From assembly GCA_949710005.1 (NCBI GenBank), contig OX453282.1, forward strand, positions 6,874,465-6,938,464: a stretch of 64,000 nt of DNA. Direction: 5' to 3'. The position numbers and the translations under genes are program-made. Positions within the stretch are counted from its first letter, which is position 1. The number at the start of each line of letters is the position of its first letter. Of the stretch, positions 30,901 to 54,100 are shown in pieces. This DNA is from Ricordea florida. Lineage: Eukaryota; Cnidaria; Anthozoa; Corallimorpharia; Ricordeidae. The notes beneath the pieces were generated by a model. That model was not told the origin of the DNA and did no database searches. It saw only the letters and a program-made list of their open reading frames with translations.

Positions 30901-31687
30901 CTTCTCTATCAACCTAACTCCATCATGTAAGTTGCTCTACCCTAATATGCTGCTCTCCTCTATGAACCTAACTCCATCATGTAAGCTGCTCTACCCTAAT
31001 AAGCTGCCCTCCTCTATCAACGTAACTCCATCATGTAAGTTGCTCTACCATTATAAGCTTCCCTCCTCTATCAATCTAACTGCATCATGTAAGTTGCTCT
31101 ACCATTATAAGCTGCCCTCCTCTATCAACCTAACTCCATCATGTAATGTGCTCTACCATTATAAGCTTCCCTCCTATATCAACCTAACTCCATCATGTAA
31201 GTTGCTCTACCATTATAAGCTGCCGTCCTCTATCAACATAACTCCATCATGTAAGCTTCTCTACCCTAATAAGCTGCCCGCCTCTATCAACCTAACTCCA
31301 TCATGTAAGCTGCTCTACCCTTATAAGCTGCTCTCCTCTATCAACCTAACTCCATCATGTAAGCTGCTCTACCCTAATAAGCTGCCCTTCTCTATCAACC
31401 TAACTCCATCATGTAAGTTGCTCTACCCTAATAAGCTGCCCTTCTCTATCAGCCTAACTCCATCATGTAAGCTGCTCTACCCTAATAAGCTGCTCTGCTC
31501 TATTAACCTAACTCCATCATGTAAGTTGCTCTACCCTAATAAGCTGCTCTCCTCTATCAACCTAACTCCATCATGTAAGCTGCTCTACCCTAATAAGCTG
31601 CCCTTCTCTATGAGCCTAACTCCATCATGTAAGCTGCTCTACCCTAACAAGCTGCTCTCCTCTATTAACCTAACTCCATAATGTAAG

Positions 31688-34600
31688 TTGCTCTACCCTA
31701 ATAAGCTGCTCTCCTCTATCAACCTAACTCCATCATGTAAGCTGCTCTACCATAATAAGCTGCTCTCCTCCATCAACCTAACTCCATCATGTAAGCTGCT
31801 CTACCCTAATAAGCTGCCCTTTTCTATAAGCCTAACTCCATCATGTAAGCTGCTCTACCCTAATAAGCTGCCCTTCTCTATCAACCTAACTCCATCATGT
31901 AAGCTGCTCTACCCTAATAAGCTGCCCTTCTCTATCAGCCTAACTCCATCATGTAAGCTGCTCTACCCTTATAAGCTGCTCTCCTCTATTAACCTAACTC
32001 CATCATGTAAGTTGCTCTACCCTAATAAGCTGCTCTCCTCTATCAACGTAACTCCATCATGTAAGCTTGTCTACCCTAATAAGCTGCCCTCCTCTATCAA
32101 CCTAACTCCATCATGTAAGCTGCTCTACCCTAATAAGCTTTCCTTTTCTATAAGCCTAACTCCATCATGTAAGCTGCTCTACCCTAATAAGCTGCTCTCC
32201 TCTATTAACCTAACTCCATAATGTAAGTTGCTCTACCCTAATAAGCTGCTCTCCTCTATCAACCTAACTCCATCATGTAAGCTGCTCTACCCTAATAAGC
32301 TGCCCTTCTCTATCAGCCTAACTCCATCATGTAAGCTGCTCTACCCTAATACGCTGCTCTCCTCTATTAACCTAACTACATCATGTAAGTTGCTCTACCC
32401 TAATAAGCTGCTCTCCTCTATCAACCTAACTCCATCATGTAAGCTGCTCTACCCTAATAAGCTGCCCTTCTCTATCAGCCTAACTCGATCATGTAAGCTG
32501 CTCTACCCTAATAAGCTGCTCTCCTCTATTAACCTAACTCCATCATGTAAGTTGCTCTACCCTAATAAGCTGCTCTCGTCTATCAACCTAACTCCATCAT
32601 GTAAGCTGCTCTACCCTTATAAGCTGCCCTCCTGTATCAACCTAACTCCATCATGTAATTTGCTCTACCATTATAAGCTTCCCTCCTCTATCAACCTAAC
32701 TCAATCATGTAAGTTGCTCTACCATTATAAGCTGCCCTCCTCTATCAACCTAACTCCATCATGTAAGCTGCTCTACCCTAATAAGCTGCCCTCCTCTATC
32801 AACCTAACTCCATCATGTAAGCTGCTCTACCCTAATAAGCTGCCCTTCTCTATAAGCCTAACTCCATCATGTAAGCTGCTCTACCCTAATAAGCTGCCCT
32901 TGTCTATTAACCTAACTCCATCATGTAAGTTGCTCTACCCTAATAAGCTGCCCTTCTCTATCAGCCTAACACCGTCATGTAAGCTGCTCTACACTAATAA
33001 GCTGCTCTCCTCTATTGACCTAACTCCATAATGTAAGTTGCTCTACCCTAATAAGCTGCTCTCCTCTATCAACCTAACTCCACCATGGAAGCTGCTCTAC
33101 CCTAATAAGCTGCCCTCCTCTATCAACCTAACTCCATCATTTAAGCTGCTCTACCCTAATAAGCTGCCCTTTTCTATAAGCCTAACTCCATCATGTAAGC
33201 TGCTCTACCCTAATAAGCTGCCCTTCTCTATCAACCTAACTCCATCATGTAAGTTGCTCTACCCTAATAAGCTGCCCTTCTCTATCAGCCTAACTCCATC
33301 ATGTAAGCTGCTCTACCCTTATAAGGTTCTCTCCTCTATTAACCTAACTCCATCATGTAAGTTGCTCTACTTTAATAAGCTGCTCTCCTCTATCAACCTA
33401 ACTCCATCATGTAAGCTGCTCTACCCTAATAAGCTGCCCTCCTCTATCAACCTAACTCCATCATGTAAGTTGCTCTACCCTAATAAGCTGCTCTCCTCTA
33501 TTAACCTAACTCCATCATGTAAGTTGCTCTACTTTAATAAGCTGCTCTCCTCTATCAACCTAACTCCATCATGTAAGCTGCTCTACCCTAATAAGCTGCC
33601 CTCCTCTATCAACCTAACACCATCATGTAAGCTGCTCTACCCTTATAAGCTGCTCTCCTCTATTAACCTAACTCCATCATGTAAGTTGCTCTACTTTAAT
33701 AAGCTGCTCTCCTCTATCAACCTAACTCCATCATGTAAGCTGCTCTACCCTATTAAGCTGCCCTTTTCTATAAGCCTAACTCCATCATGTAAGTTGCTCT
33801 ACCCTAATAAGCTGCTCTCCTCTATCAACCTAACTCCATCATGTAAGCTGCTCTACCCTAATAAGCTGCCCTCCTCTATCAACCTAACTCCATCATGTAA
33901 GCTGCTCTACCCTAATAAGCTGCCCTTTTCTATAAGCCTAACTCCATCATGTAAGCTGCTCTACCCTAATAAGCTGCCCTCCTCTATCAACCTAACTCCA
34001 TCATGTAAGCTGCTCTACCCTTATAAGCTGCCCTTCTCTATCAACCTAACTCCATTATGTAAGTTGCTCTACCCTAATAAGCTGCCCTTCTCTATCAGCC
34101 TAACTCCATCATGTAAGCTGCTCTACCCTTATAAGCTGCTCGCCTCTATTAACCTAACTCCATCATGTACGTTGCTCTACCCTAATAAGCTGCTCTCCTC
34201 TATCAACCTAACTCCATCATGTAAGCTGCTCTACCCTAATAAGCTGCCCTTCTCTATCAGCCTAACTCCATCATGTAAGCTGCTCTACCCTAATAAGCTG
34301 CTCTCCTCTATTAACCTAACTCCATAATGTAAGTTGCTCTACCCTAATAAGCTGCTCTCCTCTATCAACCTAACTCCATCATGTAAGCTGCTCTACCATA
34401 ATAAGCTGCTCTCCTCCATCAACCTAACTCCATCATGTAAGCTGCTCTACCCTAATAAGCTGCCCTTTTCTATAAGCCTAACTCCATCATGTAAGCTGCT
34501 CTACCCTAATAAGCTGCCCTTCTCTATCAACCTAACTCCATCATGAAAGTTGCTCTACCCTAATAAGCTGCCCTTCTCTATCAGCCTAACTCCATCATGT

Positions 34601-37090
34601 AAGCTGCTCTACCCTTATAAGCTGCTCTCCTCTATTAACCTAACTCCATCATGTAAGTTGCTCTACCCTAATAAGCTGCTCTCCTCTATCAACGTAACTC
34701 CATCATGTAAGCTTGTCTACCCTAATAAGCTGCCCTCCTCTATCAACCTAACTCCATCATGTAAGCTGCTCTACCCTAATAAGCTTTCCTTTTCTATAAG
34801 CCTAACTCCATCATGTAAGCTGCTCTACCCTAATAAGCTGCTCTCCTCTATTAACCTAACTCCATAATGTAAGTTGCTCTACCCTAATAAGCTGCTCTCC
34901 TCTATCAACCTAACTCCATCATGTAAGCTGCTCTACCCTAATAAGCTGCCCTTCTCTATCAGCCTAACTCCATCATGTAAGCTGCTCTACCCTAATACGC
35001 TGCTCTCCTCTATTAACCTAACTACATCATGTAAGTTGCTCTACCCTAATAAGCTGCTCTCCTCTATCAACCTAACTCCATCATGTAAGCTGCTCTACCC
35101 TAATAAGCTGCCCTTCTCTATCAGCCTAACTCGATCATGTAAGCTGCTCTACCCTAATAAGCTGCTCTCCTCTATTAACCTAACTCCATCATGTAAGTTG
35201 CTCTACCCTAATAAGCTGCTCTCGTCTATCAACCTAACTCCATCATGTAAGCTGCTCTACCCTTATAAGCTGCCCTCCTGTATCAACCTAACTCCATCAT
35301 GTAATTTGCTCTACCATTATAAGCTTCCCTCCTCTATCAACCTAACTCAATCATGTAAGTTGCTCTACCATTATAAGCTGCCCTCCTCTATCAACCTAAC
35401 TCCATCATGTAAGTTGCTCTACCATTATAAGCTTTCCTCCTCTATCAACCTAACTCCATCATGTAAGTTGCTCTACCATTATAAGCTGCCCTCCTCTATC
35501 AACCTAACTCCATCATGTAAGCTGCTCTACCCTAATAAGCTGCCCTCCTCTATCAACCTAACTCCATCATGTAAGCTGCTCTACCCTAATAAGCTGCCCT
35601 TCTCTATAAGCCTAACTCCATCATGTAAGCTGCTCTACCCTAATAAGCTGCCCTTGTCTATTAACCTAACTCCATCATGTAAGTTGCTCTACCCTAATAA
35701 GCTGCCCTTCTCTATCAGCCTAACACCGTCATGTAAGCTGCTCTACACTAATAAGCTGCTCTCCTCTATTAACCTAACTCCATAATGTAAGTTGCTCTAC
35801 CCTAATAAGCTGCTCTCCTCTATCAACCTAACTCCACCATGAAAGCTGCTCTACCCTAATAAGCTGCCCTCCTCTATCAACCTAACTCCATCATTTAAGC
35901 TGCTCTACCCTAATAAGCTGCCCTTTTCTATAAGCCTAACTCCATCATGTAAGCTGCTCTACCCTAATAAGCTGCCCTTCTCTATCAACCTAACTCCATC
36001 ATGTAAGTTGCTCTACCCTAATAAGCTGCCCTTCTCTATCAGCCTAACTCCATCATGTAAGCTGCTCTACCCTTATAAGGTTCTCTCCTCTATTAACCTA
36101 ACTCCATCATGTAAGTTGCTCTACTTTAATAAGCTGCTCTCCTCTATCAACCTAACTCCATCATGTAAGCTGCTCTACCCTAATAAGCTGCCCTCCTCTA
36201 TCAACCTAACTCCATCATGTAAGTTGCTCTACCCTAATAAGCTGCTCTCCTCTATTAACCTAACTCCATCATGTAAGTTGCTCTACTTTAATAAGCTGCT
36301 CTCCTCTATCAACCTAACTCCATCATGTAAGCTGCTCTACCCTAATAAGCTGCCCTCCTCTATCAACCTAACACCATCATGTAAGCTGCTCTACCCTTAT
36401 AAGCTGCTCTCCTCTATTAACCTAACTCCATCATGTAAGTTGCTCTACTTTAATAAGCTGCTCTCCTCTATCAACCTAACTCCATCATGTAAGCTGCTCT
36501 ACCCTATTAAGCTGCCCTTTTCTATAAGCCTAACTCCATCATGTAAGTTGCTCTACCCTAATAAGCTGCTCTCCTCTATCAACCTAACTCCATCATGTAA
36601 GCTGCTCTACCCTAATAAGCTGCCCTCCTCTATCAACCTAACTCCATCATGTAAGCTGCTCTACCCTAATAAGCTGCCCTTTTCTATAAGCCTAACTCCA
36701 TCATGTAAGCTGCTCTACCCTAATAAGCTGCCCTCCTCTATCAACCTAACTCCATCATGTAAGCTGCTCTACCCTTATAAGCTGCCCTTCTCTATCAACC
36801 TAACTCCATTATGTAAGTTGCTCTACCCTAATAAGCTGCCCTTCTCTATCAGCCTAACTCCATCATGTAAGCTGCTCTACCCTTATAAGCTGCTCGCCTC
36901 TATTAACCTAACTCCATCATGTAAGTTGCTCTACCCTAATAAGCTGCTCTCCTCTATCAACCTAACTCCATCATGTAAGCTGCTCTACCCTAATAAGCTG
37001 CCCTCCTCTATCAACCTAACTCCATCATGTAAGCTGCTCTACCCTTATAAGCTGCTCTCCTCTATTAACCTAACTCCATCATGTAAGTTG
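31688..37090. repeat. 2,646-bp block duplication inside the minisatellite
   Basis: The block beginning at 31688 recurs at 34334, an offset of 2,646 bp (49 monomers). Within the second block two extra monomers (108 bp) appear near 35.4 kb, after which the offset becomes 2,754 bp (33254 corresponds to 36008). Shared rare variants, such as a monomer with CTACTTTAAT, confirm the correspondence. Confidence 0.85.
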
Positions 37091-37860
37091 CTCTACTTTA
37101 ATAAGCTGCTCTCCTCTATCAACCTAACTCCATCATGTAAGCTGCTCTACCCTAATAAGCTGCCCTTTTCTATAAGCCTAACTCCATCATGTAAGTTGCT
37201 CTACCCTAATAAGCTGCTCTCCTCTATCAACCTAACTCCATCATGTAAGCTGCTCTACCCTAATAAGCTGCCCTCCTCTATCAACCTAACTCCATCATGT
37301 AAGTTGCTCTACCATTATAAGCTGCCCTCCTCTATCAACCTAACTCCATCATGTAAGTTGCTCTACCATTATAAGCTGCCCTCCTCTATCAACCTAACTC
37401 CATCATGTAAGTTGCTCTACCATTATAAGCTGCCCTCCTCTATCAACCTAACTCCATCATGTAAGTTGCTCTACCATTATAAGCTTCCCTTCTCTATCAA
37501 CCTAACTTTATCATGTAAGCTGCTCTACCCTAATAAGCTGCCCTCCTCTATCAACCTAACTCCATCATGTAAGTTGCTCTACCATTATAAGCTGCCCTCC
37601 TCTATCAACCTAACTCCATCATGTAAGTTGCTCTACCATTATAAGCTTCCCTCCTCTATCAACCTAACTCCATCATGTAAGCTGCTCTACCCTAATAAGC
37701 TGCCCTCCTCTATCAACGTAACTCCATCATGTAAGCACCTCTTCCCTAATAAGCTGCCCTCCTCTATCATTCTAACTCCATCATCTAAGCTGCTCTAACA
37801 TTATAAGCTGCCCTCCTCTATCAACCTAATCCCGTCATGTAAGTTGCTGTACCCTAATAA

Positions 37861-38262
37861 GCTGCCTTTCTTTGTCAAGCCACCATCGCCTTAAATAAGC
37901 TGCACCCCCCTAACAGAGTACCTCCTTCTCTCAAGTAACTCCCCCTTACATTAGTTACCCCACTCTACTAAGCCACGCCCCTTAACTAAGTTACCGTTTT
38001 GTAATAAGCTGTCCCTGTTAAAAATAAAAAACCAACAAGCAACAAAACGATAAAACAAAAATGAGAATACAAGCAAGTAATGCTGTATTTAGCTAACTCA
38101 AAATGGGTGGATTTTTACTGTCGCGTAATGTACTGTATTATAGGCGTGAATTAACGCACGCATATATAATTAGACACACTGTGTGGCGCTTTCAAGTAAA
38201 CATAGAACGTTCAGTGAACGGCACTCAACTTTTTCCGCTTACTTGGCTTAATAGACCATTTA
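37861..38262. other. Array edge and conserved flank of unit 1
   Basis: Beyond the last regular monomer the sequence decays through CTTTGTCAAGCCACCATCGC and further monomer-like fragments to about 38010, then becomes ordinary AT-rich DNA. Both parts match 46300-46701 in unit 2 closely. No gene is seen. A short ORF at 38103-38300 is not conserved as protein. Confidence 0.7.
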
Positions 38263-39025
38263 ATGCCCATAGATTGTGTAGCCTCGGCTTATGTTCTTAA
38301 AGCTCTAAGCATCAGTTCGGGCCTTAGCCTGACAGTTAATTACATTGGGCCGCTGGGCTTAAGAGAGCTTTGTAAGCTAATTGAAATAAAAAATACCCCA
38401 ACACAGGGACATGTTTTGGATGAAGCTTACAAATCCCGTGATTGCAGGAACAGTCGTCTGTATCTTGCTAGCAATTCAGTAACATATAAAGGTGTAGAGT
38501 TCTTCTCTGATGCACTGTCTAAAGAAGGTTGTAAACTAACTCATTTGGACCTCATTGACAATTCAGTAACTGATAAAGGTGTAAAGTTCTTGTCTGATGC
38601 ACTGTCTAAAGAAGGTTATAAACTAACTCATCTGGACCTTACTGACAATTTAATAACTGATAAAGGTGTAGAGTTCTTGTCTGATGCACTGTCTAAAGAA
38701 GGTTGTAAACTAATGTATCTAAACCTCGCTAGCAATTCAGTAGCTGATAAAGGTGTAGAATTCGTGTCTCAGTGATGCACTGTCTAAAGAAGGTTGTAAA
38801 CTAACGTATCGAAACATCACTAATAATTCACTAACTCTTAAAGGTGTAGAGTTCTTGTCTGATGCACTGTCTAAAGAAGGTTTTTAACTAAATGAGCTGG
38901 TGCTCAGTCCCACTTCAGTGACTGCTGTAGGCATAGAGTACTTTTGTGATAATCTTTCTCAAACTAGATATAGAGTTTTTGATTATGAGCGATCCGGTGT
39001 GACTTTGCTAAGAATATGTACATAA
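38263..39025 (+). pseudogene. LRR-only receptor fragment, unit 1
   Basis: From about 38270 the sequence matches the 3' third of the NACHT-LRR genes (DCVASAYVLKALSISSG, then TPTQGHVLDEAY and LRR units with consensus VTDKGVEFLSDALSKEG). The NACHT and membrane domains are absent. A 4-base insertion near 38770 breaks the frame, and a GGTTTTTAAC in place of GGTTGTAAAC gives a further stop near 38886. The 3' flank to about 39085 is also shared with the full genes. Unit 2 carries the same fragment with different lesions, so it predates the unit duplication. Confidence 0.8.
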
Positions 39026-39099
39026 GTTTACCATATTAACAATATTAATTAGATATTACTTTATCAATATGCTACACTACTAAATTAGCTTATTCATTT

Positions 39100-40960
39100 A
39101 TATTTTCTTACACGTGAGACTGGAGAATTTGGTGTTAAATCGATTCACCATCTTTCAACTGATTATCTATGATACCATATAAGATTTTCACGGTTGACAA
39201 TTCTTGTTTTACTGCTGTAAGAGCTTCATACCATTCCAAAAATATTTTCCAGAACTCTGATACAAACGGACATGAAACTAGCATATGCTTTAGATCTGGT
39301 TTTGTTTCTGAGCATAAATAGCAAATATCACTGCTCGCAAATTTAACTTGAAATAATTTGCTCTTTGTAAAAACTAGATCATGTAAAGGTTTTTACTAGA
39401 ACATAGTAAACTTCACTTCTATAGTTATAGAGAAGGCTAAGAGGAAGTATTTGCTTATTTGGTCCGGTGTTAACCCATTGGCAATAAGGCGTTGTTTTGT
39501 GGTGGGTACTTCAAATATGTGCTTCACGAAACTTTTATCTATTAATAGGTTTGGTTATTAGCACTTTCAGGTTGTCCCATGGCTGTGTAAGGTGCTCTTG
39601 TTGTACATCTTTTCGCTTTATTGCCTTTTTATATTCTTGTGGAATAATAGGTCAAGACATTTGTTTGCAGCTGATACCGGAGTTTAAATTCTTCATAGGT
39701 GAGAAAATCTAGATTTTGGTCGAGAAGGTCTTTTAAGGTTTAAACTCCTTTACCAAACCAAGTACGGAAAGAAATCGACTTGTCATCAATTTTGACTGAT
39801 ATCTTTGTTATTCCATATAATCGTTTTCTTAGTGCATGGCATTTTATTATTCTGCACATCCTTAAACTCAAACCAGTATTGTAACATTCTCTTATAAAAG
39901 AGTGGTCGCTCTTTGATGTTAAGATCCTTACTGTTACAGTTACAGGTTAAGAGGAAGGTTAAGCCTCCCAAGACGTGTAATGTGGCTTCATTGACAATAA
40001 CCGTCCATGCTGAATTCCACTCAGGGGAAATCGCTTTATCCAAATGGACTTTAGGGTTTTGTTCATTGAAGTAAAACCAATCATATTCAGACCCCAGTTT
40101 TTGCGTTCGCCAATAATTGCATTTTTTTTTAATTTTGGCAATTTTGTAATTTTGGCAATTTTGTTGTCCCAGATAAAATTAAAGGTGATTTTGTTTACCT
40201 GATCACAGACGTTTTCAGGGATTGGCAGTACGGACGCATTGTAGATAAGCTTCGAAAGGCCCACAGATTTAACAATGTTGATCTTGCCTAATAGAGTAAG
40301 TTTTCGTCCTTTCCAATCGTTTAAGGTCTTTTCCAAAACATCTAATTTTTCATAGAAGTTAAAATTATCACTAACCATTGTCAAGTTTGCCGGAGAAGTG
40401 TATTCCTAAAACATAAACAGTCTTTTGACCACTTAACGTTGAAAGAGGTATCTTCTCTGTTTTTCCATTTTCCCAGCCTCTGCTCTGACTTCCTATGGTT
40501 CATTTTTAATCCTGAGTATTTTTCAAACTTTACCAGGAGGTCAAGCAAAAGACTCATTGATTCGGGGTTTTTTAGAAAAACTGTTGTATCATCCGCATAC
40601 TGTGTGATTTTTATTTCGCGTGCTCCTACTCTGATGCCTTCAATTTTCGAATTTTTTTTTTAATCGCAAGTGCAAGAGTTTCAATACCAAGGACAAATAG
40701 TATGCCTGATAGTGGGCAACCCTGTCTGACACCTCGCTCCAGATTGAAAAAATCAGAGGCATAACCATTGTTTGTCACCGAGCTAGTTATGTTGCAATAG
40801 AAAGTCTGTATCCAATTTTTGAAGTCAGGACCAAAATTAAGTTTGTCGAGAGCCTTAAAAAGGAAATTCCATTCTATATAATCAAATGCCTTTTCAAAGT
40901 CGAGGAAGACAGCAAGACTGGGGCGGTTTTTTGCTGACCACATTTGTAAGTTAACTAATT
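39100..40960 (-). mobile_element. 5'-truncated L1/Tx1-like LINE, copy 1 (decayed)
   Basis: Read on the minus strand, pieces of a reverse transcriptase appear in order: FLDFEKAFD (40900 region), GVRQGCPLSGILFVLGIE, the YADD catalytic box near 40590, a LTLLGKINIVKSVGLSKLIY region, and a C-terminal Cys motif (CYLCSE, then a HMLVSCPLVSEFW-type zinc knuckle) near 39250-39330, ending near 39135. Frameshifts split it into several pieces, so it is inactive. It is cut just upstream of the FLDFEKAFD motif. The same truncation point occurs in copies 2 and 3. Confidence 0.85.
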
Positions 40961-42116
40961 ACCTCTTACTAGTTGTGAGATACTATATATACTGTTGTAG
41001 CGTTAATGAAGAACCTTTGTTTTTTAGTACTTATTTAACAATAGTGACAAACAATTTAAAGCCGAAATCGAAAAGCAAATATCAACAAGGACTAATTCGT
41101 CTGAACGTTACTACAATAAATGGAAACGGCCCAGTTGAATTGACAAGAAGTTTGTAATTTAGAGCTGTATATTACTTTTCTTTGTATTTTGTAGGATACA
41201 ACGAAACTTTTTGCAAGTTATAGTAATAATTGTAACTGTACTGTATTTTAGTGTATTGTAAGTATTATTTGTACGTATTGTAAAGGTAATGCAGATGTTG
41301 TTAATAAAAAAATTGAACTGAAAAAAATCTTTCAGTTGATTTTTTTCTTCAATTCTGATTATCAGTATGATTTTAAAATCCATCAAACTTCATTTTCCAG
41401 CCTAATCTCATGCTCTACCTATTTCTGTGATATCAGTGCAGTGTCAGTGTCACCTAGCTGCTTGTTTGTAATTTTATCCTTTTTATTTTTGGCCTTCCAT
41501 GTTTTGTCTCCCTCCACTCAAGTGATGTTATCCTATTCCATCTCATTGAGATCTAAGTATCAATTCTCCTAAGCGAGTGCCTTGTATTTTCTTACACGTG
41601 AGACTTGCGAATTTGGTGTTAAATCGATTCATCATCTTTCAGTTGATTTTCTCCTCAATTCGGATTATCAGCATGATTTTACAGTTTATCGTTGTGCCGA
41701 AAAGAACTTTCTTGTTGATCACTTAAACTGACACCGTCACGCAACGCGAATCTGTTATCAGTCAATCACACTAACTGACCTGTCAGAACATCTGGCAGAC
41801 TGCCTAACATATGCAAGCATCAGACTATCGCTTTTTCTTTTGGTTTACTGGGGGGTACTTTACTAATTTCTGGGTGGGGATGTGCCGCTGGAACCCTGGA
41901 ACCCTTAGCCTATACCAGAGCTGGTTAAGCTGAATTTTTCTACCCAATACTAGAGTAAACCCCCCAAATCACGCTAGAGTAAACTGCTTGAAAACCATAC
42001 CCTTCACAACGGCACATACCTAGATCGCCCATCTATGGCAGACCCCCTCCCCCCGGGGGTCTGAACTTACTATCGCTTATATAGCCTTAGTTTCGAAGAG
42101 TGAGCACCTATTCAAA
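40961..42116 (+). promoter_or_regulatory. 5' flank of receptor gene 1
   Basis: No coding gene is supported. The stretch is shared with the flanks of units 2 and 3, and includes an AATAAAAAAATTGAACTG A-rich site near 41306, two related copies of a CAATTCTGATTATCAGTATG-type motif (about 41350 and 41655), and a CCCCCCGGGGG run just before the gene. Near 42078-42084 a TATATAG lies 39 bases before the ATG and is conserved ahead of the relic start at 50632, but not before gene 2. Promoter function is plausible from position. Confidence 0.4.
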
Positions 42117-45100
42117 ATGGAATCGTTGAAGGAGTTTATCACGCCGAAAAGCTACAACAGATTTTGCTTCTTCGTAATTGTTCTAGTGCCCATAGTCGGC
42201 ACAATCTTGTTCACTATCTTTGGCGAATTGGAAACCAGCGAACCGAGATATTTCAACTGCGATGTGAGAGGCGAAAACAAACAGTTTATTCAAGGAAAGT
42301 GCTTGGAGCAATACGAAAATCGCTTCAACAAAGCCTTACCCGTTTATGGTTTTGTAATCATAAACTTTTTCAGCCTTGGAGTTGCATCCGTTTTGTCCTC
42401 GATAGCAGTCAAATCAAAAGTTGATGAGCTCGATGCTAAAGATGTGGAAATAGGAAGCCTTGTGGCTCGCACTCGTCCACTCCGCACTCGTCGATTCTTT
42501 CTCGCTTATTGTCTACAACTGGTGAGCAGGATTGTGTTGGGAGTGACTTTTATTACACTGCAAAAACTTCTGTACCCTTCTAACTTTCCCACGGAATTCA
42601 CTTGCGAATTCCCAGCAAAGAAACTAAATGATACAGCATCTATAGCCAGACCTGTAAGCAACACCACAACAACATACGCTTGTCATAACCAGCGAGCAAC
42701 AAGGAAAACCTTCTGGGCCAGTACTGTGTGGATTATAAACGTAGCTTTCGTGGCGTTTGCTGTAATAGAAGGAGCTTACCTCGGCTACCAAGCTAGACTG
42801 GTGCCAGATTTCACAACTGACTTGACATTTCTCGAATCGCATTTGATGGGGAAGAATTCGGGGTGGAAAGAATACATACAACACATTAAGGACCAGATCA
42901 AACAAGAAACAGAGGAACTGCAACCGCTTTTTCAACCCAACCCGGGAGAAGGAGAATCCAGAGTGCTCAAGATGGAGCGGATCTACACCAATATGGTCAT
43001 TTATCCCAACAGAGCAACGTATAAGTTCGACAAGAAAAAGCGGCATGAGATTTTAGATGGATATGTCTTACCAACTGAAGAGAGGCGTCCCTTTAAGAAA
43101 CCAGAAGACATATTTCTGCCTAGAAATGATGAATATCATGGCAAGCCACTCTATATCTTGGTTGTTGGTCGCCCAGGTATTGGAAAAACACTGCTTTGTC
43201 AGAAACTAGCTCGTGATTGGGCATGCGATAGAATGCTTCAGGAAATGACGGAGGAAAAGAAATCGGTCGACTTTGAAATTGTTTTCCTTATTAACTTTAG
43301 AAGGTTTTACACAGGTGAAAAAGTGAACCTCCAAAACGTGCTGCGAAATTCAGAATATTCGACCCCAGGATCTGTCCATAACGAAATGTTACAATACATA
43401 CTTCGATACCCAGAGAAAGTACTTCTTATTTTTGATGGGTTCGACGAATGTCATGATCAATCCGCTGTTATCAGTGAAAGCCAATACGGAAACAATGCAG
43501 CAGAGCTCATGCCTTTCCCTGCACTTTATGGAAAACTGGCTTCAGGGAAACTTCTCTCCGGAGCCACAGTGTTAACAACCACCAGACCTACAGCAGTTGT
43601 GAACGTAAAGCATCTCAAGTTCGACAGAACTGTAGAGATGCTGGGGTTTACATCAGAACAAGTTAAGGAATATGTAGAACGGTTTATGAGTGATGACAGC
43701 ACAGCAAAAGATCAAGTATGGAACCACATCAGCACGAACGTTAACGTATTGTCATTGTGTTACGTACCCGTCAACTGCTTCATTGTATGTTCTTGCCTCC
43801 AAGACGAGCTTACGTTTTCTAGAGGATCGGAGTTAGTAGGGGTCAACCTCCCTGTAACCCTCACTGATATTTACAGCCAAGCATTACGGTGGTTTTTGTT
43901 GAAGCATAATCCTGAATGCCGCTCTCTTAGTCCCGAAAAGCGCGAAGAGTTCATCTACGACCGTTTTACTCCCGATATAGTTAACGAAACGTTGTTACGA
44001 CTGGGTGAGATAGCTTTGGAAGGCACAAACGATGACCGTCTGATCTTTAAGTCAAGTGAAGTGGACGGACTTAAAGATTGTGGTCTTCTTCACCGCCTTC
44101 CAGATCGAGTTGGCCGTGGAAAGCAGAGAAGCAGTGAAACAGAGAAGCAGTACTGTTTCTTGCATTTGACGATGCAAGAATTTCTAGCAGCAAGGGAACT
44201 AGTAAGAAAGACCGAAGAATTGAAAGCATTTGTTTCTAAACACATCGGGGAGGGAAAATGGCAACTGGTGATACAGTTTGTGGCTGGACTGCTTCGTGAT
44301 CGCGAGGGATCTTTTACAGATGTTTTTGCTAGTCTATTTCCTTCTGAAATAGAATACATTTGGCGTAAATTCGGATACGAGGGGGGGTGGGAAGAAGCAC
44401 CTATTATGTGGTGGCCAGCTGACAAAGACAAACAGTTAGTGCTTACATTATGCAAGTGTTTCTATGAGTACAACAAGTTAACAAAGGAGATGATTCAAAG
44501 TGTAATTCCTAGAGTTATCGTGGAGTATGTAGATTTTTCCAAGTCTGCGCTTTCGCCAGTTGATTGTGTGAGCTTGGTTTATGTTCTCAAACATTTAAAC
44601 ATCAGTTCGCAACTTTACCTGGAATTTAATCATCACATTGGGACGCTGGGCTTAAGAGAGATTTGTAAGCTATTTGATACCCCAACACAGGGACATGTTT
44701 TGGATGAGGCTTACGAATCCCGTGATTGCAGGATCAGTTGTCTGAACCTTACTGCCAATTCAGTAACTGATAAAGGTGTAGAGGTCTTGTGCGATGCACT
44801 GTGTAAAGAAGGTTGTAAACTAACTCGTCTGGACCTCATTGACAATTCAGTAACTGATAAAGGTGTAGAGTTCTTGTCTAATGCATTGTCTAAAGAAGGT
44901 TGTAAACTAACTCATCTGGACCTTACTGGGAATTTAGTAACTGATAAAGGTGTAGAGTTCTTGTGTGATGCACTGTCTAAAGAAGGTTGTAAACTAACTG
45001 AGCTGTACCTCAGTAATAATTCAGTAACTGATAAAGGTGTAGAGTTCTTGTCTGATGCACTGTCTAAAGAAGGTTGTAAACTAACTTATCTGGACCTCGA

Positions 45101-45215
45101 TGACAATTCAGTAACTGATAAAGGTGTAAAGTACTTGTGTGATAATCTTTCTCAAACTAGATATAAAGTTGAGTTGACACCTCATAGGACTTCGCTAACA
45201 ATATTATTGAAATAA
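42117..45215 (+). CDS. Four-pass membrane NACHT-LRR receptor (NLR), gene 1
   Basis: A single uninterrupted frame encodes 1,032 residues. Four hydrophobic helices lie at about 17-36, 75-97, 127-150 and 198-224. Loop 1 has C48 and C62, and loop 2 has C163 and C189 followed by QRATRKTFW; spacing and motifs resemble connexin-type gap-junction subunits. NACHT follows with Walker A GRPGIGKT (351-358) and Walker B LLIFDGFDE (436-444), a helical region with FLHLTMQEFLAARE (about 680-695), then five 28-residue LRRs (about 872-1015) with consensus VTDKGVEFLSDALSKEGCKL. NACHT domains drive nucleotide-dependent oligomerisation; sensing and pore roles here are inference. No intron is needed. The topology would place both ends in the cytosol. 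Confidence 0.92.
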   Translation: MESLKEFITPKSYNRFCFFVIVLVPIVGTILFTIFGELETSEPRYFNCDVRGENKQFIQGKCLEQYENRFNKALPVYGFVIINFFSLGVASVLSSIAVKSKVDELDAKDVEIGSLVARTRPLRTRRFFLAYCLQLVSRIVLGVTFITLQKLLYPSNFPTEFTCEFPAKKLNDTASIARPVSNTTTTYACHNQRATRKTFWASTVWIINVAFVAFAVIEGAYLGYQARLVPDFTTDLTFLESHLMGKNSGWKEYIQHIKDQIKQETEELQPLFQPNPGEGESRVLKMERIYTNMVIYPNRATYKFDKKKRHEILDGYVLPTEERRPFKKPEDIFLPRNDEYHGKPLYILVVGRPGIGKTLLCQKLARDWACDRMLQEMTEEKKSVDFEIVFLINFRRFYTGEKVNLQNVLRNSEYSTPGSVHNEMLQYILRYPEKVLLIFDGFDECHDQSAVISESQYGNNAAELMPFPALYGKLASGKLLSGATVLTTTRPTAVVNVKHLKFDRTVEMLGFTSEQVKEYVERFMSDDSTAKDQVWNHISTNVNVLSLCYVPVNCFIVCSCLQDELTFSRGSELVGVNLPVTLTDIYSQALRWFLLKHNPECRSLSPEKREEFIYDRFTPDIVNETLLRLGEIALEGTNDDRLIFKSSEVDGLKDCGLLHRLPDRVGRGKQRSSETEKQYCFLHLTMQEFLAARELVRKTEELKAFVSKHIGEGKWQLVIQFVAGLLRDREGSFTDVFASLFPSEIEYIWRKFGYEGGWEEAPIMWWPADKDKQLVLTLCKCFYEYNKLTKEMIQSVIPRVIVEYVDFSKSALSPVDCVSLVYVLKHLNISSQLYLEFNHHIGTLGLREICKLFDTPTQGHVLDEAYESRDCRISCLNLTANSVTDKGVEVLCDALCKEGCKLTRLDLIDNSVTDKGVEFLSNALSKEGCKLTHLDLTGNLVTDKGVEFLCDALSKEGCKLTELYLSNNSVTDKGVEFLSDALSKEGCKLTYLDLDDNSVTDKGVKYLCDNLSQTRYKVELTPHRTSLTILLK

Positions 45216-45500: not shown

Positions 45501-45880
45501 ATGAGAATAGATACAATAAAGAAAAAAAATCGGACACGAAACGTGAATTTTTTTGTGAAGCATAATTAAGATATAACTGCGCGCTAGAGCGAACATAAAA
45601 ACGAAGGATAAAATGCAGACTTTTTGTAACGACTGGTTATTTATTCTTAGTGAGCTAAAAAAAACTGAATTAGTCGGCTTCTTTGCGTGATAATATATGA
45701 CGCGCGCAACGTAAACTGTGTTGGCACGTTGATTTGGAATTGGAAAATTTTTGAAATGACAGGAAAGTTGGTATCAAGGTTGTTTGGGTGGAGTATTGAC
45801 CAAGACGAAAAGTAATGGATAGAATGAAGATGAACATCAGTGGAAAAATGAAATAAATCGTAAATACTCTATGAAGCCAC
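45500..45880. other. Left boundary sequence of unit 2
   Basis: From AGATACAATAAAG near 45508 to about 45880 the sequence matches 59105-59460 closely (ATCGGACACGAAAC, ATAACTGCGCGCTA and others). It marks the left end of the duplicated unit in units 2 and 3. It is non-coding, with several stops in all frames. The equivalent is missing from unit 1, where the minisatellite abuts the Polinton DNA. Confidence 0.7.
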
Positions 45881-46330
45881 GCCTCTTAAATAAACTGCCC
45901 TCCTCGAATACGTTGCCCTCCTCTATGGAGCCACCATCCCATGACATAAGTTGCCCCACCCTAATGAGCTGCCCTCCATAATCAAGCTACCATCGCATCA
46001 AATAAGCTGACCTACCCTCATAAGTTGTCCATCTATATCAAGCCACCATCCCCGTCAAATAAGCTGCCCTACCCCAATAAGGTGCCCTCCTTTATCACGC
46101 CACCACCCATTAAATTAGGTGCCCCAACGCTAATAAGCTGCATTCGTCTATCAGGCCACCATCCCATCAAAGAAGCTACCCTACCCTAATACGCTGCCCT
46201 CCTCAATCAAGCTATCCACCCTTAAATAAGTGGCCCAGCCCTAATAAACTGCTCTCCTCTATCAACCTAATCCCCTCATGTAAGTTGCTCTACCATTATA
46301 AGCTGCCTTTCTTTGTCAAGCCACCATCGC
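45880..46330. repeat. Degenerate minisatellite, unit 2
   Basis: About eight diverged monomers of the 54-bp family are recognisable by CTAATAAGCTGCCCTCC-like strings alternating with AGCCACCATCCC in place of the array's CTAACTCCATCATG. The last monomer (about 46256-46310) is close to the expanded type. This is the paralogous site to the 17-kb array of unit 1. Confidence 0.8.
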
Positions 46331-46701
46331 CTTAAATAAGCTACACCCCCCTAACAGAGAACCCCCTTCTCTCAAGTAACCCCCCTTACATTAGTTACCC
46401 TACTCTACTAAGCCACGCCCCTTAACTAAGTTACCATTCTGTAATAAGCTGTTCCTGTTAAAAAAAAAACCAACTAGCAACAAAACAATAAAACAAAAAT
46501 GAGAATACAAGAAAGTAATGCTGTATTTAGCTAACTCAAAATGGGTGGATTTTTACTGTTGTGTAACGTACTGTATTATAGGCGTGAATTAACGCACGCA
46601 AATATAATTAGACACACTGTGTGGCGCTTTCAAGTAAACATAGAACGTTCTGAGAACGGCACTCAATTTTTTCCACTTACTTGGCTTGATAGACCATTTA
46701 C
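46331..46701. other. Conserved flank between degenerate repeat and LRR fragment, unit 2
   Basis: This matches 37880-38262 of unit 1 nearly base for base, including TGGGTGGATTTTTACTGT and ATTAGACACACTGTGTGGCG. No gene is seen. Confidence 0.7.
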
Positions 46702-47500
46702 TGCCCATTGATTGTGTAGCCTTGGTTTATGTTCTTAAGGCTCTAAGCATCAGTTCGGGCCTTAGCCTGACAGTTAATTACGTTGGGCCGCTGGGCTTAA
46801 GAGAGCTTTGTAAACTAATTGAAATAAAAAATACCCCAACACAGGGACATGTTTTGCATGATGAAGCTTACAAATCCCGTGATTGCAGGAACAGTCGTCT
46901 GTATCTTGCTAGCAATTCAGTAACATATAAAGGTGTAGAGTTCTTGTCTGATGCACTGTCTAAAGAAGGTTGTAAACTAACTCATTTGGACCTTATTGAC
47001 AATTCAGTAACTGATAAAGGTGTAGAGTTCTTGTCTGATGCACTGTCTAAAGAAGGTTGTAAACTAACTCATTTGGACCTCATTGACAATTCAGTAACTG
47101 ATAAAGGTGTAGAGTTCTTCTCTTCTCAAAAGGAGGTTGTAAACTAACTGATCTGTACCTCACTGATAATTTAATAACTGATAAAGGTGTAGAATTCTTG
47201 GAATACATTACTAATAATTCAGTAACTGTTAACATGAAGGTGCTTGTCTGATGCACTGTCAAAAGGATCGAGATTGTAAACTAACTGATCTGTTCCTCAC
47301 TGACAATTTAATAACTGATAAAGGTCTACAGTTCTTGTCTGATGCACTGTGTAAAGAGGGTTGTAAACTAAATGAGCTGGTGCTCAGTCCCACTTCAATG
47401 ACTGATGCAGGCATAGTCAGTACTTTTGTGATAATCTTTCTCAAACTAGATATAGAGTTTTTGATGATGAGCGATCCGGTGTGACTTTGCTAAGAACATG
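46702..47500 (+). pseudogene. LRR-only receptor fragment, unit 2
   Basis: It is a copy of the unit 1 LRR fragment (shared ATTGAAATAAAAAATACCCC and a TYKGVEF variant in the first repeat). The frame is broken near 47115, where part of a repeat is deleted, and again near 47200-47260 by rearranged sequence. About six LRR-like units can be followed across frames. It cannot encode a receptor. Confidence 0.8.
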
Positions 47501-47584
47501 TACATAAGTTTACCATATTAACAATATTAATTAGATATTACTTTATCAATATGCTACACTACTAAATTAGCTTATTCATTTATA

Positions 47585-49410
47585 TTTTCTTACACGTGAG
47601 ACTGGAGAATTTGGTGTTAAATCGATTCACCATCTTTCAATTGATTATCTATGATACCATTTAAGATTTTCACGGTTGACAATTCTTGTTTTACTGCTGT
47701 AAGAGCTTCATACCATTCCAGAAATATTTTCCAGAACTCTGATACCAACGGACATGAAACTAGCATATGCTTTAGATCTTGTTTTGTTTCTGAGCATAAA
47801 TAGCAAATATCACTGCTCGCAAGTTTAACTTGAAATAATTTGCTTTTTGTAAAAACTAGATCATGTAAAGTTTTTTACTAGAACATAGTTAACTTCAATT
47901 CTATAGTTATAGAGAAGGCTAAGTGGAAGTATTTGCTTATTTGGTCCGGTGTTAACCCATTGGCAATAAGGCGTTGTTTTGTGGTGAGTTCTTGAGTAAA
48001 TATGTGCTTCACGAAACTTTTATCTATTAATAGCTCTGGTTGTTAGCACTTTCAGGTTGTCCCATGGCTTTGTAAGGTGCTCTTGTTGTACATCTTTTCG
48101 CTTTATTGCCTTTTTATATTCTTGTGGAATAATAGGTCAAGACATTTGTTTGCAGCTGATACCGGAGTTTAAATTCTTCATAGGTGAGGAAATCTAGATT
48201 TTTGTCGAGGTCTTTTAAAGTATAAACTCGTTTATCAAACCAAGTACGGAAAGAAATCTTCTTGTCATCAATTTTGACTGTTATCTTTGTTATCCATATA
48301 ATCGTTTTCTTAGTACATGGCATTTTATTATTCTGCACATCCTTAAACTCAAACCAGTATCGTAACATTCTCTTCTAAAAGAGTGGTCGCTCTTTAATGT
48401 TAAGATCCTTACTGTTACAGTTACAGGTTGAGAGGAAGGTGAAGCCTCCCAAGTGTAATGTGGCTTCATAACCGTCCATGCCGAATTCCCACTCAGGTGA
48501 AATCGCTTTATCCAAATGGACTTTAGGATTTTGTTCATTAGAGTAAAACCAATCATATTCAAACCCCCGTTTTTGCTTTCGCCAATAATTGCATTTTATT
48601 TAATTTTGGCAATTTTGTTGTCCCGGATAAAATTAAACGTGATTTTATTTACTTGACCACAGACGTTTTCAGGGATTGGCAGTACGGATGCATTGTAGAT
48701 AAGCTTCGAAAGGCCCACAGATTTAACAATGTTGATCTTGCCTAATAGAGTTAGTTTTCGTCTTTTCCAATCGTTTAAGGTCTTTTCCAAAACATCTAAT
48801 TTTTCATAGAAGTTAAAATTATCACTAACCATTGTCAAGTTTGCCGGAGAAGTGTATTCCTAAAGCATAAACAGTCTTTTGGCCACTTAACGTTGAACGG
48901 GGTATTTTCTCTGTTTTTCCATTTTCCCAGCCACATTGCCTCTGACTTCGTATGGTTAATTTTTAATCCTGAGCATTTTTCAAACTTTTCCAGGAGGTCA
49001 AGCAAAAGACTCATTGATTCGGGGTTTTTTAGAAAAAACTGTTGTATCATCCGCATACTGTGTGATTTTTATTTCGCGTGCTCCTACTCTGATGCCTTCA
49101 ATTTTCGTATTTTTTTTTTTAATCGGAAGGGCAAGAATTTCAATACCAAGGACAAATAGTATGCCTGATAGTGGGCAACCCTGTCTGACACCACACTCCA
49201 GATTGAAAAAAATCAGAGGCATAACCATTGTTTGTGACGCAGCTAGTTATGTTGCCTGAATAGGAAGTCTGTATCCAATTTTTGAAGTCAGGACCAAAAT
49301 TAAGTTTGTCGAGAGCCTTAAAAAGGAAATTCCATTCTATAGAATCAAATGCTTTTCAAAGGCGAGGAAGAGAGCAAGACCGGGGAGGTTTTTTGCTGAC
49401 CACCTTTGTA
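47585..49410 (-). mobile_element. 5'-truncated L1/Tx1-like LINE, copy 2 (decayed)
   Basis: It is collinear with copy 1 and truncated at the same place. The GVRQGCPLSGILFVLGIE and QYADDTTVF motifs are present near 49150 and 49050; frameshifts separate RT, thumb and C-terminal pieces. It belongs to the duplicated unit and is not an independent insertion. Confidence 0.85.
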
Positions 49411-50631
49411 TTAGTTAACTAATCACCTCTTACTAATTGCGAGATACTATGAATACTGTTATAGCATTAATGAAGAACCTTTGTTTTTTAGTACTTTTTT
49501 AACAATAGTGAAAAAAATAGCCGAAATCGAAATGCAAATATCAACAAGGACTAGTTCGTCTGAACGTTACTACAATAAATGGAAACCTTTAATTGACACG
49601 AAGTTTGTAATTTAGAGCTGTATATTACTTTTCTTTTTATTTTGCAGGATATAACGCAACTCTTTGCAAGTTATAGTAGTAATTGTAACTGTATTTTAGT
49701 GTATTGTAAGTATTATTTGTACGTATTGTAAAGGTAATGCAGATGTTGTTAATAAAAAAAATTAACTGAAAAAAAATCTTGCAGTTCATTTTGTTCTTCA
49801 ATTCTGATTATCAGTATGATTTTACAACCAATCAAACTTCATTTTCCAGCCTAATCTCATGCTCTACCTATTTCTGTGATATCAGTGCAGTGTCAGTGCC
49901 ACCAAGCTGCTTGTTTGTAATTCTATCCTTTTTATTTTTGGCCTTCCATGTTTTGTCTCCCTCCACTCAAGTGATGTTATCCTATCCCATCTCATTGAGA
50001 TCTAAGTATCAATTCTCCTAAGCGAGTGCCTTGTATTTTCTTACACGTGAGACTTGCGAATTTGGTGTTACATCGATTTATCATCTTTCAGTTGATTTTC
50101 TCCTCAATTCTGATTATCAGCATGATTTTACAGTTTATCGTTGTGCCGAACAGAACTTTCTTGTTGATCACTAAAACTGACACCGTCACGCAACGCGAAT
50201 CTGTTATCAGTCAATCACACTAACTGACCTGTCAGAACATCTGGCAGACTATCGCAAGCAAGCATCAGACTATCGCTTTCTCTTTTGGTTTACTGGGGGG
50301 TACTTTACTAATTTCTGAGTGGGGATGTGCCACTGGAACCCTGGAACCCTGAGCCTATACCAGAGCTGGTTCAGCTGAATTTTGCTACCCTATACTAGAG
50401 TAAACCCCCCAAATCACTCCTATCGTAGAGTAGCTTTTTTCCAGAAACTGAGGTCACTAGTAAACGCTCTGATTTACATACCTTATGCTAGAGTAAACTG
50501 CTTGAAAACCATACCGTTCACAGCGGCACATACCTAGATCGCCCATACATGGCAGACCCTCTCCCCCCGGGGGTCTAAACTTACTCTCACTTATATAGCC
50601 TTAGTTTTGGAGCAGTGAGTACCTATTCAAA
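49411..50631 (+). promoter_or_regulatory. 5' flank, unit 2, first copy
   Basis: The sequence parallels 40961-42116, including the CCCCCCGGGGG run and CTTATATAGCC before the relic start at 50632. An additional stretch of about 55 bases near 50420-50480 (CTATCGTAGAGTAGC onwards) is absent from unit 1. No gene is seen. Confidence 0.45.
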
Positions 50632-50986: not shown

Positions 50987-51161
50987 ACCGTCACGCAACG
51001 CGAATCTGTTATCAGTCAATCACACTAACTGACCTGTCAGAACATCTGGCATACTGCCTAACATATGCAAGCATCAGACTATCGCTTTCTCTTTTGTTTG
51101 ACTGTCTGAATTTACTATCCCTCATGCAGCTTTACTTTCCAGGAGTGAGGGCCCATTCAAA

Positions 51162-54100
51162 ATGGAATCCTTCAAGGAGTTTATCACGCCGAAAAGCTAC
51201 AACAGATTTAGCTTCTTCGTAATTTTTCTAGTGCCCATAGTCGGCACAATCTTGTTCACTATCTTTGGCGAATTGGAAACCAGCGAACCGAGATATTTCA
51301 ACTGCGATGTGAGAGGCGAAAACAAACAGTTTATTCAAGGAAAGTGCTTGGAGCAATACGAAAATCGCTTCAACAAAGCTTTACCCGTTTATGGTTTCGT
51401 AATCATAAACTTTGTCAGCCTTGGAGTTGTATCCGTTTTGTCCTCGATAGCAGTCAAATCAAAAGTTGATGAGCTCGACCAGAATAAAGATGTGGAAATA
51501 GGAAGCCTTGTGGCTCGCACTCGTCCACTCCGCACTCGTCGATTCTTTCTCGCTTATTGTTCGCAACTGGTGAGCAGGATTATGTTGGGAGTGACTTTTA
51601 TTACACTGCAAAAACTTCTGTACCCTTCTAACTTTCCCACGGAATTCACTTGCGAATTCCCAGCAAAGAAACTAAATGGAACAGCATCTATAGCCAGACC
51701 TGTCAGCAACACCACAACAACATACGCTTGTCATAACCTGCGAGCAACAAGGAAAACCTTCTGGGCCAGTACTGTGTGGATGATAAACGTAGCTTTCGTT
51801 GCGTTTGCTGTAATAGAAGGAGCTTACCTCGGCTACCAGGCTAGACTGGTGCCAGATTTCACAACTGACTTGACATTTCTCGAATCGCATTTGATGGGGA
51901 AGAACTCGGGGAGGAAAGAATTCATAAAAGACATTAAGGACCAGATCAAACGGGAAACAGAGGAACTGCAACCGCTTTTTCAACCCAACCCGGGAGAAGG
52001 AGAATCCATAGTACTCAAGATGGAGCGGATCTTCACTAATATGGTCATTTATCCCAACAGAGCAACGTATGAGTTCGACAACAAAAATCGGCATGAGATT
52101 TTAGATAAATATGTCTTACCAACTGAAGAGAGGCGTCCCTTTAAGAAACCAGAAGACATATTTCTGCCTAGAAATGATGAAGATCATGGCAAGCCACGCT
52201 ATATCTTGGTTGTTGGTCGCCCAGGTATTGGAAAAACAATGCTTTGTCAGAAACTAGCTCGTGATTGGGCATGCGATAGAATGCTTCAGGAAATGACGGA
52301 GGAAAAGAAATTGGTCGACTTTGAAATTGTTTTCCTTGTTAAGTTTAGAAGATTTAACACAGGTGAAAAAGTGAACCTCCAAAACTTACTGCGAAATTCA
52401 GAATATTCGACCCCAGGATCTTTCGATAACGAAATTTTACAATACATACTTCGATACCCAGAGAAAGTACTTCTTATTTTTGATGGGTTCGACGAATGTC
52501 ATGATCAATCCGCTGTTATCAGTGAAAGCCGATACGGAAACAATGCAGCAGAGCTCATGCCTTTCCCTGCACTTTATGGAAAACTGGCTGCAGGGAAACT
52601 TCTCTCCGGAGCCACAGTGTTAACAACCACCAGACCTACAGCAGTTGTGAACCTGAAGCATCTCAAGTTCGACAGAACTGTAGAGATGCTGGGATTTACA
52701 TCAGAGCAGGTTAAGGAATATGTAGAACGGTTTATGAGTGATGACAGCACAGCAAAAGATCAAGTATGGAACCACATCAGCACGAACATTAACTTACTGT
52801 CATTGTGTTACGTACCCGTGAACTGCTTCATTGTATGTTCTTGCCTCCAAGACGAGCTTAAGTTTTCTAGAGGATCAAAGTCAGTAGAGGTCAACCTCCC
52901 TGTAACCCTCACTGATATTTACAGTCAAGCATTACGGTGGTTTTTGCTGAAGCATAATCCTGAATGCCGCTTTCTTACTCCCGAAAAGCGCAAAGAGTTT
53001 ATCTACAACCGTTTTACTCCCGAGATAGTTAACGAAACGTTGTTAGGACTGGGAAAGATAGCTTTGGAAGGCACAAAAGATGGCCGTCTGATCTTTAAAT
53101 CAAGTGAAGTGGACGGACTTAAAGATTGTGGTCTTCTTCACCGCCTTCCGGATCGAGTTGGCCGTGGAAAGCGGAGAAGCAGTGAAACAGAGAAGGAGTA
53201 CTGTTTCTTGCATTTGACGATGCAAGAATTTCTAGCAGCAAGGGAACTAGCAAGAAAGAATCCCGAAGAATTGAAAGCATTTGTTTCTGAACACATCGAG
53301 GAGGGAAAATGGCAACTAGTGATACAGTTTGTGGCTGGACTGCTTCGTGATCGCGAGGGAACGATTACAGATGTTTTTCCTAGTGTTTTTCCTTCTGAAA
53401 CAATGAGTAATGAAGACTGGTTTGGGGAAATACCAACAATCAGCTCCTGGCCAGCTGACAAACAGTTAGTGCTGACATTATGCAAGTGTTTCTATGAGTA
53501 CAACAGGTTAACAAAGGAGATTATTCGAAGTGTAATTCCTAGAGTTATCGTGGACTATGTAGATTTTTTCAATTCCGCGCTGTCGCCAGCTGATTGTGTA
53601 GCCTTGGTTTATGTTCTCAAAAATTTAAGCATCAGTTCGGGCCTTAACCTGATAAATAATTACATTGGGCCGCTGGGCGTAAGAGAGATTTGTAAGCTAT
53701 TTGATACCCCAACACAGGGACATGTTTTGGATGAGGCTTACGAATCCCGTGATTGCAGGATCAGTAGTCTGATTGTTTCTAACAATTCAGTAACTGATAA
53801 AGGTGTAGAGTTCTTGTCTGATGCACTGTCTAAAGAAGGTTGTAAACTAACTTATCTGGACCTCAATGACAATTCAGTAACTGATAAAGGTGTAGAGTTC
53901 TTGTCTGATGCACTGTCTAAAGAAGGTTGTAAACTAACTCATCTGAACCTCGCTAGAAATTCAGTAACTGATAAAGGTTTAGAGTTCTTGTCTGATGCAC
54001 TGTCTAAAGAAGGTTGTAAACTAACTTATCTGGACCTCACTAACAATTCAGTAACTGATAAAGGTGTAGAGTTCTTGTCTGATGCACTGTCTAAAGAAGG

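Follow-up and report, generated by a model that had tools for sequence, protein, structure and literature searches.

A connexin-like four-helix domain at the head of a NACHT and leucine-rich repeat receptor in Ricordea florida and stony corals

Can a NOD-like receptor (NLR) of a cnidarian carry a membrane domain related to the connexins? The question is raised by a gene of the corallimorpharian Ricordea florida, here called gene A, at positions 42117-45215 (+ strand) of the window. The window is the whole stretch of DNA analysed and comprises 64,000 nucleotides (assembly GCA_949710005.1, contig OX453282.1, positions 6,874,465 to 6,938,464 of the forward strand); all coordinates below refer to it. 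A first-pass annotation, made from the letters alone, had read the gene as a connexin-like pore domain fused to a receptor containing NACHT and leucine-rich repeats (LRRs), and had remarked that connexins are generally regarded as chordate proteins. Published surveys agree with the latter, at least in the parts available (PMC8769644, PMC6391747).

The receptor gene and its coral relatives

Gene A is a single-exon, intact gene of 1032 amino acids. Its reading frame runs from ATG to stop uninterrupted, with no intron required. The protein comprises, in order, a connexin-like four-helix domain, a linker, NACHT, helical domains and LRRs. The NACHT ATPase occupies residues 346-526 (43152-43694, + strand; Pfam expect value (E) 1.7e-28) and includes the Walker A sequence GRPGIGKT and the sequence LLIFDGFDE. 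The LRRs lie at approximately residues 873-1010 (44733-45146, + strand; LRR_6, E 4.1e-20), over an 87-bp tandem DNA repeat. Both matches bear out the receptor part as first annotated, and a NACHT with Walker A and B followed by C-terminal LRRs places the protein among the NLRs. NLRP3 was the closest solved chain to the NACHT by sequence, and NOD2 and NLRP3 were closest by fold. The LRR part matched ribonuclease inhibitor and was modelled at a predicted local distance difference test score (pLDDT) of 84-97 (per ten residues) in the full-length model. An immune-sensing role for the gene A protein may be proposed from its family and domain content.

The connexin-like domain spans residues 1-230 (42117-42806, + strand), as supported by Pfam PF00029, an AlphaFold2 (AF2) model, Foldseek and an hhalign alignment of residues 14-228. 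Hydropathy was scanned with a 19-residue window at a threshold of 1.6. Peaks upstream of NACHT were centred at residues 21-31, 82-90, 136-139 and 207-215, and AF2 placed helices at 10-40, 76-111, 116-152 and 192-228, confirming the four hydrophobic helices that had been called there. A further weak peak was seen at 551-553, within the receptor part. From AF2 and hydropathy together, the transmembrane helices (TM) were assigned, all on the + strand, to approximately residues 14-38 (TM1; 42156-42230), 76-100 (TM2; 42342-42416), 126-152 (TM3; 42492-42572) and 199-224 (TM4; 42711-42788). The segment of outer loop 1 from C48 to C62 lies at 42258-42302 (+) and that of outer loop 2 from C163 to C189 at 42603-42683 (+), the latter containing two N-glycosylation sequons (N171 and N182). 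The motifs reported around loop 2 were all present in the translation: FITLQKLLY (145-153), F161-T-C163 and, with the form C-x3-R-x-T-x-K-T, C189-HNQ-R-A-T-R-K-T (42681-42710, + strand). The last aligns with the connexin sequence C-x3-R-P-T-E-K-T that precedes TM4.

A homologue search with residues 1-235 as query returned 67 homologous proteins (E 4.6e-51 to 3.7e-20, 30-44% identity). NACHT was annotated in all 67, LRR_6 in 56 and a precomputed Pfam Connexin match in 23. The named sources were Orbicella faveolata, Porites lobata and Desmophyllum pertusum, which are all Scleractinia and represent two suborders; one Orbicella homologue bears the name NLRC5-like. The domains of the 67 homologues were aligned with those of gene A and of gene B, an intact paralogue in the window (described below). 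The four loop cysteines, two per outer loop as first annotated, were present at aligned positions in all 69 domains, and neither loop contained any other cysteine. E218 (in TM4), K197, N191, Q134, Y131, P75 and Y77 were likewise invariant in 69/69. All 69 proteins keep a P-loop (G-x4-GK-[ST]), and the NACHT motor therefore looks intact. Loop 2 carried at least one N-glycosylation sequon in every domain (69/69), a modest excess when redundancy is removed (24/24 non-redundant loops against 17.2 expected from shuffled loops). In a tree, genes A and B were placed together on a long branch (1.12) away from all other rows. Judged by sequence, a connexin-like domain, NACHT and LRRs are united in a single protein, and a family across several stony corals conserves this order.

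No relative was found among viral contigs (42 pattern matches) or prokaryote contigs (9 pattern matches). Nineteen shorter, stand-alone-like proteins were found. Ten of these were scanned, giving Pfam Connexin in 5 at E <= 0.01 and NACHT in none; among eight inspected, some extend into the linker of the receptor and look like fragments. In P0077 (450 amino acids) the connexin-like domain is followed by an unrelated cysteine-containing C-terminus in place of NACHT, representing either a different fusion or a mobile-element insertion. P0078 (385 amino acids, 31 member sequences) stops ahead of NACHT and had no Pfam match at E <= 0.01; it is possibly a stand-alone pore-domain gene or a short transcript.

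Relationship to connexins and other large-pore families

Pfam Connexin (PF00029) was the sole large-pore family turning up for the gene A protein. The full chain matched it at E 1.3e-4, residues 1-280 at 3.9e-6 and residues 1-244 at 2.3e-6. The same model was matched at E <= 0.01 by 18 of 20 family members (best 3.2e-8). It was matched at E <= 1 by none of 20 controls in which residues were permuted inside each helix and loop, and by none of 10 reversed sequences. Two further members, P0073 and P0077, matched nearly the entire profile (31-224 and 45-222 of 225, E approximately 2e-4). Weak matches to unrelated membrane families mark the noise level: TMEM70 in 3/20 members (best 0.0018), 7tm_1 in 1/20 (0.00057) and DUF805 for the gene A protein (0.0076). 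A family profile was searched against 177,635 distinct PDB sequences. At E <= 10 it retrieved 25 sequences, every one a gap junction protein; the best was Cx31.3 (7.7e-4), and only two sequences fell below 0.001. A profile-profile comparison had been suggested at the outset. In hhalign the family was collinear with beta-type connexins over residues 14-228 with a score of 42.3. None of 150 segment-preserving shuffles reached this score, the highest giving 31.1, and the reversed alignment gave 20.3. The connexin signal in this alignment resides in TM3-loop 2-TM4.

The suggested monomer prediction and structural search were also favourable. The four-helix connexin fold was obtained by prediction, with the AF2 helices and Foldseek/VIA matches extending across residues 9-230. 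Connexins made up all of the best 50 of 277 Foldseek rows for the AF2 domain model (best E 9.0e-6). By profile as well as by fold, the domain matches connexin best. In a separate fold search of BFVD, the single hit below 0.001 was W6JKV6, an uncharacterised entomopoxvirus protein of 227 amino acids (Foldseek E 9e-4, 242 alignment columns, 14% identity).

Several results limit the connexin match. Gene A scores below the Pfam curated cut-off of 31.3 bits, both at full length (22.2) and for the domain alone (27.2-28.0). The TM1-loop 1-TM2 half taken by itself scores 21.0 in hhalign, and 100 shuffles of that half reach 25.2. With phmmer, gene A alone retrieved four PDB sequences at E <= 10 (two PsbY, two Cx31.3), of which chloroplast PsbY was first (E 9.2e-5) and Cx31.3 had an E of 0.51; the PsbY score arises from four weak, repeated 28-residue matches to TM1. 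The predicted fold is fitted equally well by LRRC8, whose structural Z differs by no more than 1 from that of the top-scoring connexin. A profile of beta-type connexins only discriminated poorly: 9/69 domains outscored all 2829 decoys, neither gene A nor gene B being among them. Median scores were 9.4 for real domains, -0.2 for shuffled and 1.4 for reversed sequences, and reversed sequences were four of the top five decoys.

Connexins have three cysteines in each outer loop, and the coral domains have two (69/69). The loop-2 motif retains C-x3-R-x-T-x-K-T and lacks the F, S, P and E of the connexin C-F-x-S-R-P-T-E-K-T. In the hhalign register the coral residues take cysteine positions one and three of both connexin loops (C48 and C62 in loop 1, C163 and C189 in loop 2). 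The loops of Cx26 are joined first-to-third, second-to-second and third-to-first. From this register the coral domain therefore keeps the partners of both outer bonds and is without the two partners of the middle bond. Connexin disulfide bonds connect the two loops, according to the available part of one source, which does not rule out bonds within a loop; the same source describes Cx23 as missing the second cysteine from each loop and still forming hemichannels and gap junctions (PMC4729916). Mouse Cx23 gave ATP release without junctions and the zebrafish form made both, as stated in the part of a further report that was available (PMC3920103). Because six loop cysteines are lacking and the Pfam cut-off is not reached, the domain is described as connexin-related and not as a connexin. 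The first-pass reading of a connexin-like domain stands as a profile and fold match, and falls short of membership of the family.

Features shared with connexins, especially Cx23/GJE1 and Cx31.3/GJC3, are the four helices, two cysteine-bearing outer loops, the TM4 glutamate, and F-x-C and C-x3-R-x-T-x-K-T around loop 2; the coral domain is also like Cx23 in being without the second cysteine of each loop. It differs in having four loop cysteines where connexins have six, a longer loop 2 with sequons, and an NACHT-LRR receptor as its C-terminus, and the named carriers are cnidarians.

The likeness might alternatively be convergent, the large-pore domain being derived from LRRC8, an innexin or an unrelated four-pass family with a similar loop-2 motif. 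On predicted models, connexin and LRRC8 are not separable by structure alone, and a subunit fold of the connexin/LRRC8 type is very likely. LRRC8 volume-regulated anion channels appear to share with the coral protein a four-helix large-pore fold followed by LRRs, which are cytosolic at the LRRC8 C-terminus; the coral protein differs in its NACHT ATPase between pore domain and LRRs. Innexins and pannexins have the same topology and two cysteines in each loop. Innexins also have sequons in their loops, according to the accessible part of a survey (PMC8769644). By sequence, none of these families was matched. For gene A, neither an LRRC8 model nor the innexin/pannexin model PF00876 was listed by Pfam at E <= 1, a search in which HMMER's own filtering discards most matches weaker than 0.1. 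No LRRC8 chain and no innexin or pannexin occurred among the family-profile matches at E <= 10, and CALHM matched neither gene A in Pfam nor the family in the PDB profile search. These families are silent even though the PDB contains LRRC8 structures, as well as structures of innexins, pannexins and CALHM. The motif, the invariant TM4 glutamate, the register of the loop cysteines and the collinearity all point to connexin. Convergence is accordingly considered quite unlikely, and common ancestry with connexins probable. The earlier analogy to LRRC8 may hold for the predicted fold and finds no counterpart in sequence.

The tandem locus and its surroundings

Paralogue B (51162-54503, + strand) is intact, encodes 1113 amino acids and is 87% identical to A across A residues 1-1013. 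A third copy (61331-61791, +) is broken and consists of the connexin-like domain only, with a frame change near residue 17, the TM2 region absent and the first loop-2 cysteine replaced by phenylalanine. LRR-only fragments lie upstream of gene A (38260-39010, +) and of gene B (46698-47492, +). In DNA comparisons 37803-41972 was 92% identical to 46244-50417, and 42059-45143 was 93% identical to 51104-54170, the latter two blocks each holding most of a coding sequence. The locus is therefore a tandem array.

The ratio of nonsynonymous to synonymous substitution rates (dN/dS) between A and B was 0.41 for residues 1-230, 0.80 for the linker, 0.62 for NACHT, 0.65 for residues 531-860 and 1.32 for the LRRs; these values are rough, being based on 9.5, 4, 6, 27 and 6 synonymous changes, respectively, with LRR units possibly out of register. 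The connexin-like domain was the lowest of the five parts and the LRRs the highest, a pattern that fits an effector under constraint and a diversifying sensor. Beneath the LRRs of gene A, an 87-bp (29-codon) tandem repeat was found at 44741-45143 with 87% matches, which suggests that the repeat number changed recently. This stretch is of unequal length in A and B.

The broken copy and LRR-only fragments would fit if the gene were an artefact of assembly or gene modelling, or if the locus were made up of pseudogenes. The one unbroken exon, the two intact copies, the identical fusion in 67 homologues of other records and the dN/dS of 0.41 in the connexin-like domain argue so strongly for a genuine gene that this explanation can be practically dismissed.

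Elsewhere in the window, two adjoining Polinton/Maverick-like blocks occupy 2-20384. They contain an A32-type ATPase (Pfam E 2.4e-12), two rve integrases and two related capsid-like proteins, with one weak Capsid_N match below cut-off; two further long proteins are presumably DNA polymerase B type, a name given by reading the sequence. They are followed at 20690-37866 by 17 kb of satellite DNA with a 54-bp unit, which also shows up as a 162-bp period; matches are at approximately 91%, and the open frames are long and meaningless. Short units at 45867-46413 repeat within that stretch and again near 59.5 kb, and by eye resemble the large satellite.

Proposed mechanism and significance

The gene A protein may be a membrane-embedded hexacoral NLR with a putative connexin-type four-helix large-pore domain as its N-terminal effector, a reading judged as likely as not. 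The N-terminus, middle loop, NACHT and LRRs would be in the cytosol and both cysteine loops outside. The NACHT-LRR part is placed in the cytosol on account of its need for ATP and by analogy with the C-termini of connexins and LRRC8, which are cytosolic; the loop charges of the gene A domain do not decide the topology. Disulfides would join the loops as C48-C189 and C62-C163, like the outer two connexin bonds. Several subunits would form an unpaired, glycosylated hemichannel, with six subunits if it is like connexins and LRRC8. Glycosylation of innexin-type loops is thought to impede docking, and yet seven innexins that carry predicted sites do make junctions, as set out in the accessible part of a survey (PMC8769644). 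Given this precedent and the loop-2 sequons, an unpaired hemichannel seems likelier than a cell-cell channel, without this being firm. Ligand binding by the LRRs would then shift the nucleotide state of NACHT, and the pore would assemble or open. Pore formation by the connexin-like domain is slightly favoured, and a NACHT-gated hemichannel is put forward more tentatively, as somewhat doubtful. The channel mechanism as a whole is offered as a well-motivated hypothesis.

The helices could instead be a membrane anchor and oligomerisation platform of connexin fold, with signalling by proximity of NACHT-LRR parts or by recruited partners and no conduction. Conduction is a hypothesis, and the two linker stretches with pLDDT below 50 between the connexin-like domain and NACHT (267-289 and 301-324) would weaken mechanical gating, which also tells against the channel reading. 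An anchor would need less than is conserved: among 53 full-length proteins, 23 of the 57 invariant columns are within residues 39-238. In global hhalign the segment ahead of TM1 aligned over its full length with the N-terminus of connexins, the part that lines their pore. An anchor-only role is considered unlikely.

As a channel, the receptor would act as plant resistosomes do, with a connexin pore part. With the plant coiled-coil NLR (CC-NLR) resistosome of the ZAR1 type it shares the concept that a receptor driven by nucleotide can serve as the pore; homology is not claimed. The plant pore is a soluble coiled coil that is inserted upon activation, whereas the coral helices are predicted to span the membrane permanently. 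NACHT, helical domains and LRRs are shared with animal NLRs (NLRP3, NOD2, NLRC5-like), from which the coral protein differs in having a predicted integral membrane connexin-like domain at its N-terminus and not PYD, CARD, Death or HEPN.

Coral NACHT gene families are described as amplified, with many tandem copies (PMC10236652), and their partner domains as including HEPN (PMC10236652, PMC8260672) and also CARD, death and TIR (PMC8260672), in the parts of these surveys that were available. The word "connexin" is absent from the main text of both surveys, whose supplements could still tabulate such a domain. No publication describing a coral NLR with a connexin domain was found among the papers listed, judged by titles and the openings of abstracts and with preprints and most subscription papers outside the search. 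As far as found, the Pfam Connexin label on some coral proteins is a match computed earlier, apparently without discussion. In the accessible parts of the connexin surveys, BLAST of transcriptomes and genomes gave no non-chordate connexin-like protein except one unconfirmed sea urchin transcript (PMC8769644), and a search with Pfam PF00029 placed connexin acquisition within chordates (PMC6391747); a de novo origin was proposed (PMC8769644, PMC6391747).

With a conserved coral family that scores as connexin-related, the origin of connexins becomes testable. A second testable question is whether animals possess receptors that themselves form pores. Mammalian inflammasome receptors work via adaptors and gasdermins; in the coral protein, by contrast, a single chain carries the sensor, the ATPase and the pore-type domain. 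It is possible, if doubtful, that the pore domain of connexins goes back to an ancient module of animals, retained in cnidarians as an NLR effector. It would then have had no de novo chordate origin, and the coral receptor would be an animal counterpart of the resistosome with sensor and channel in one protein. Desmophyllum pertusum, a deep-sea coral, carries the receptor and lives without photosymbionts, and a role tied to symbiosis alone is therefore unlikely. If the channel reading is true, a direct switch for death or ATP release would bear on coral disease, and possibly on bleaching.

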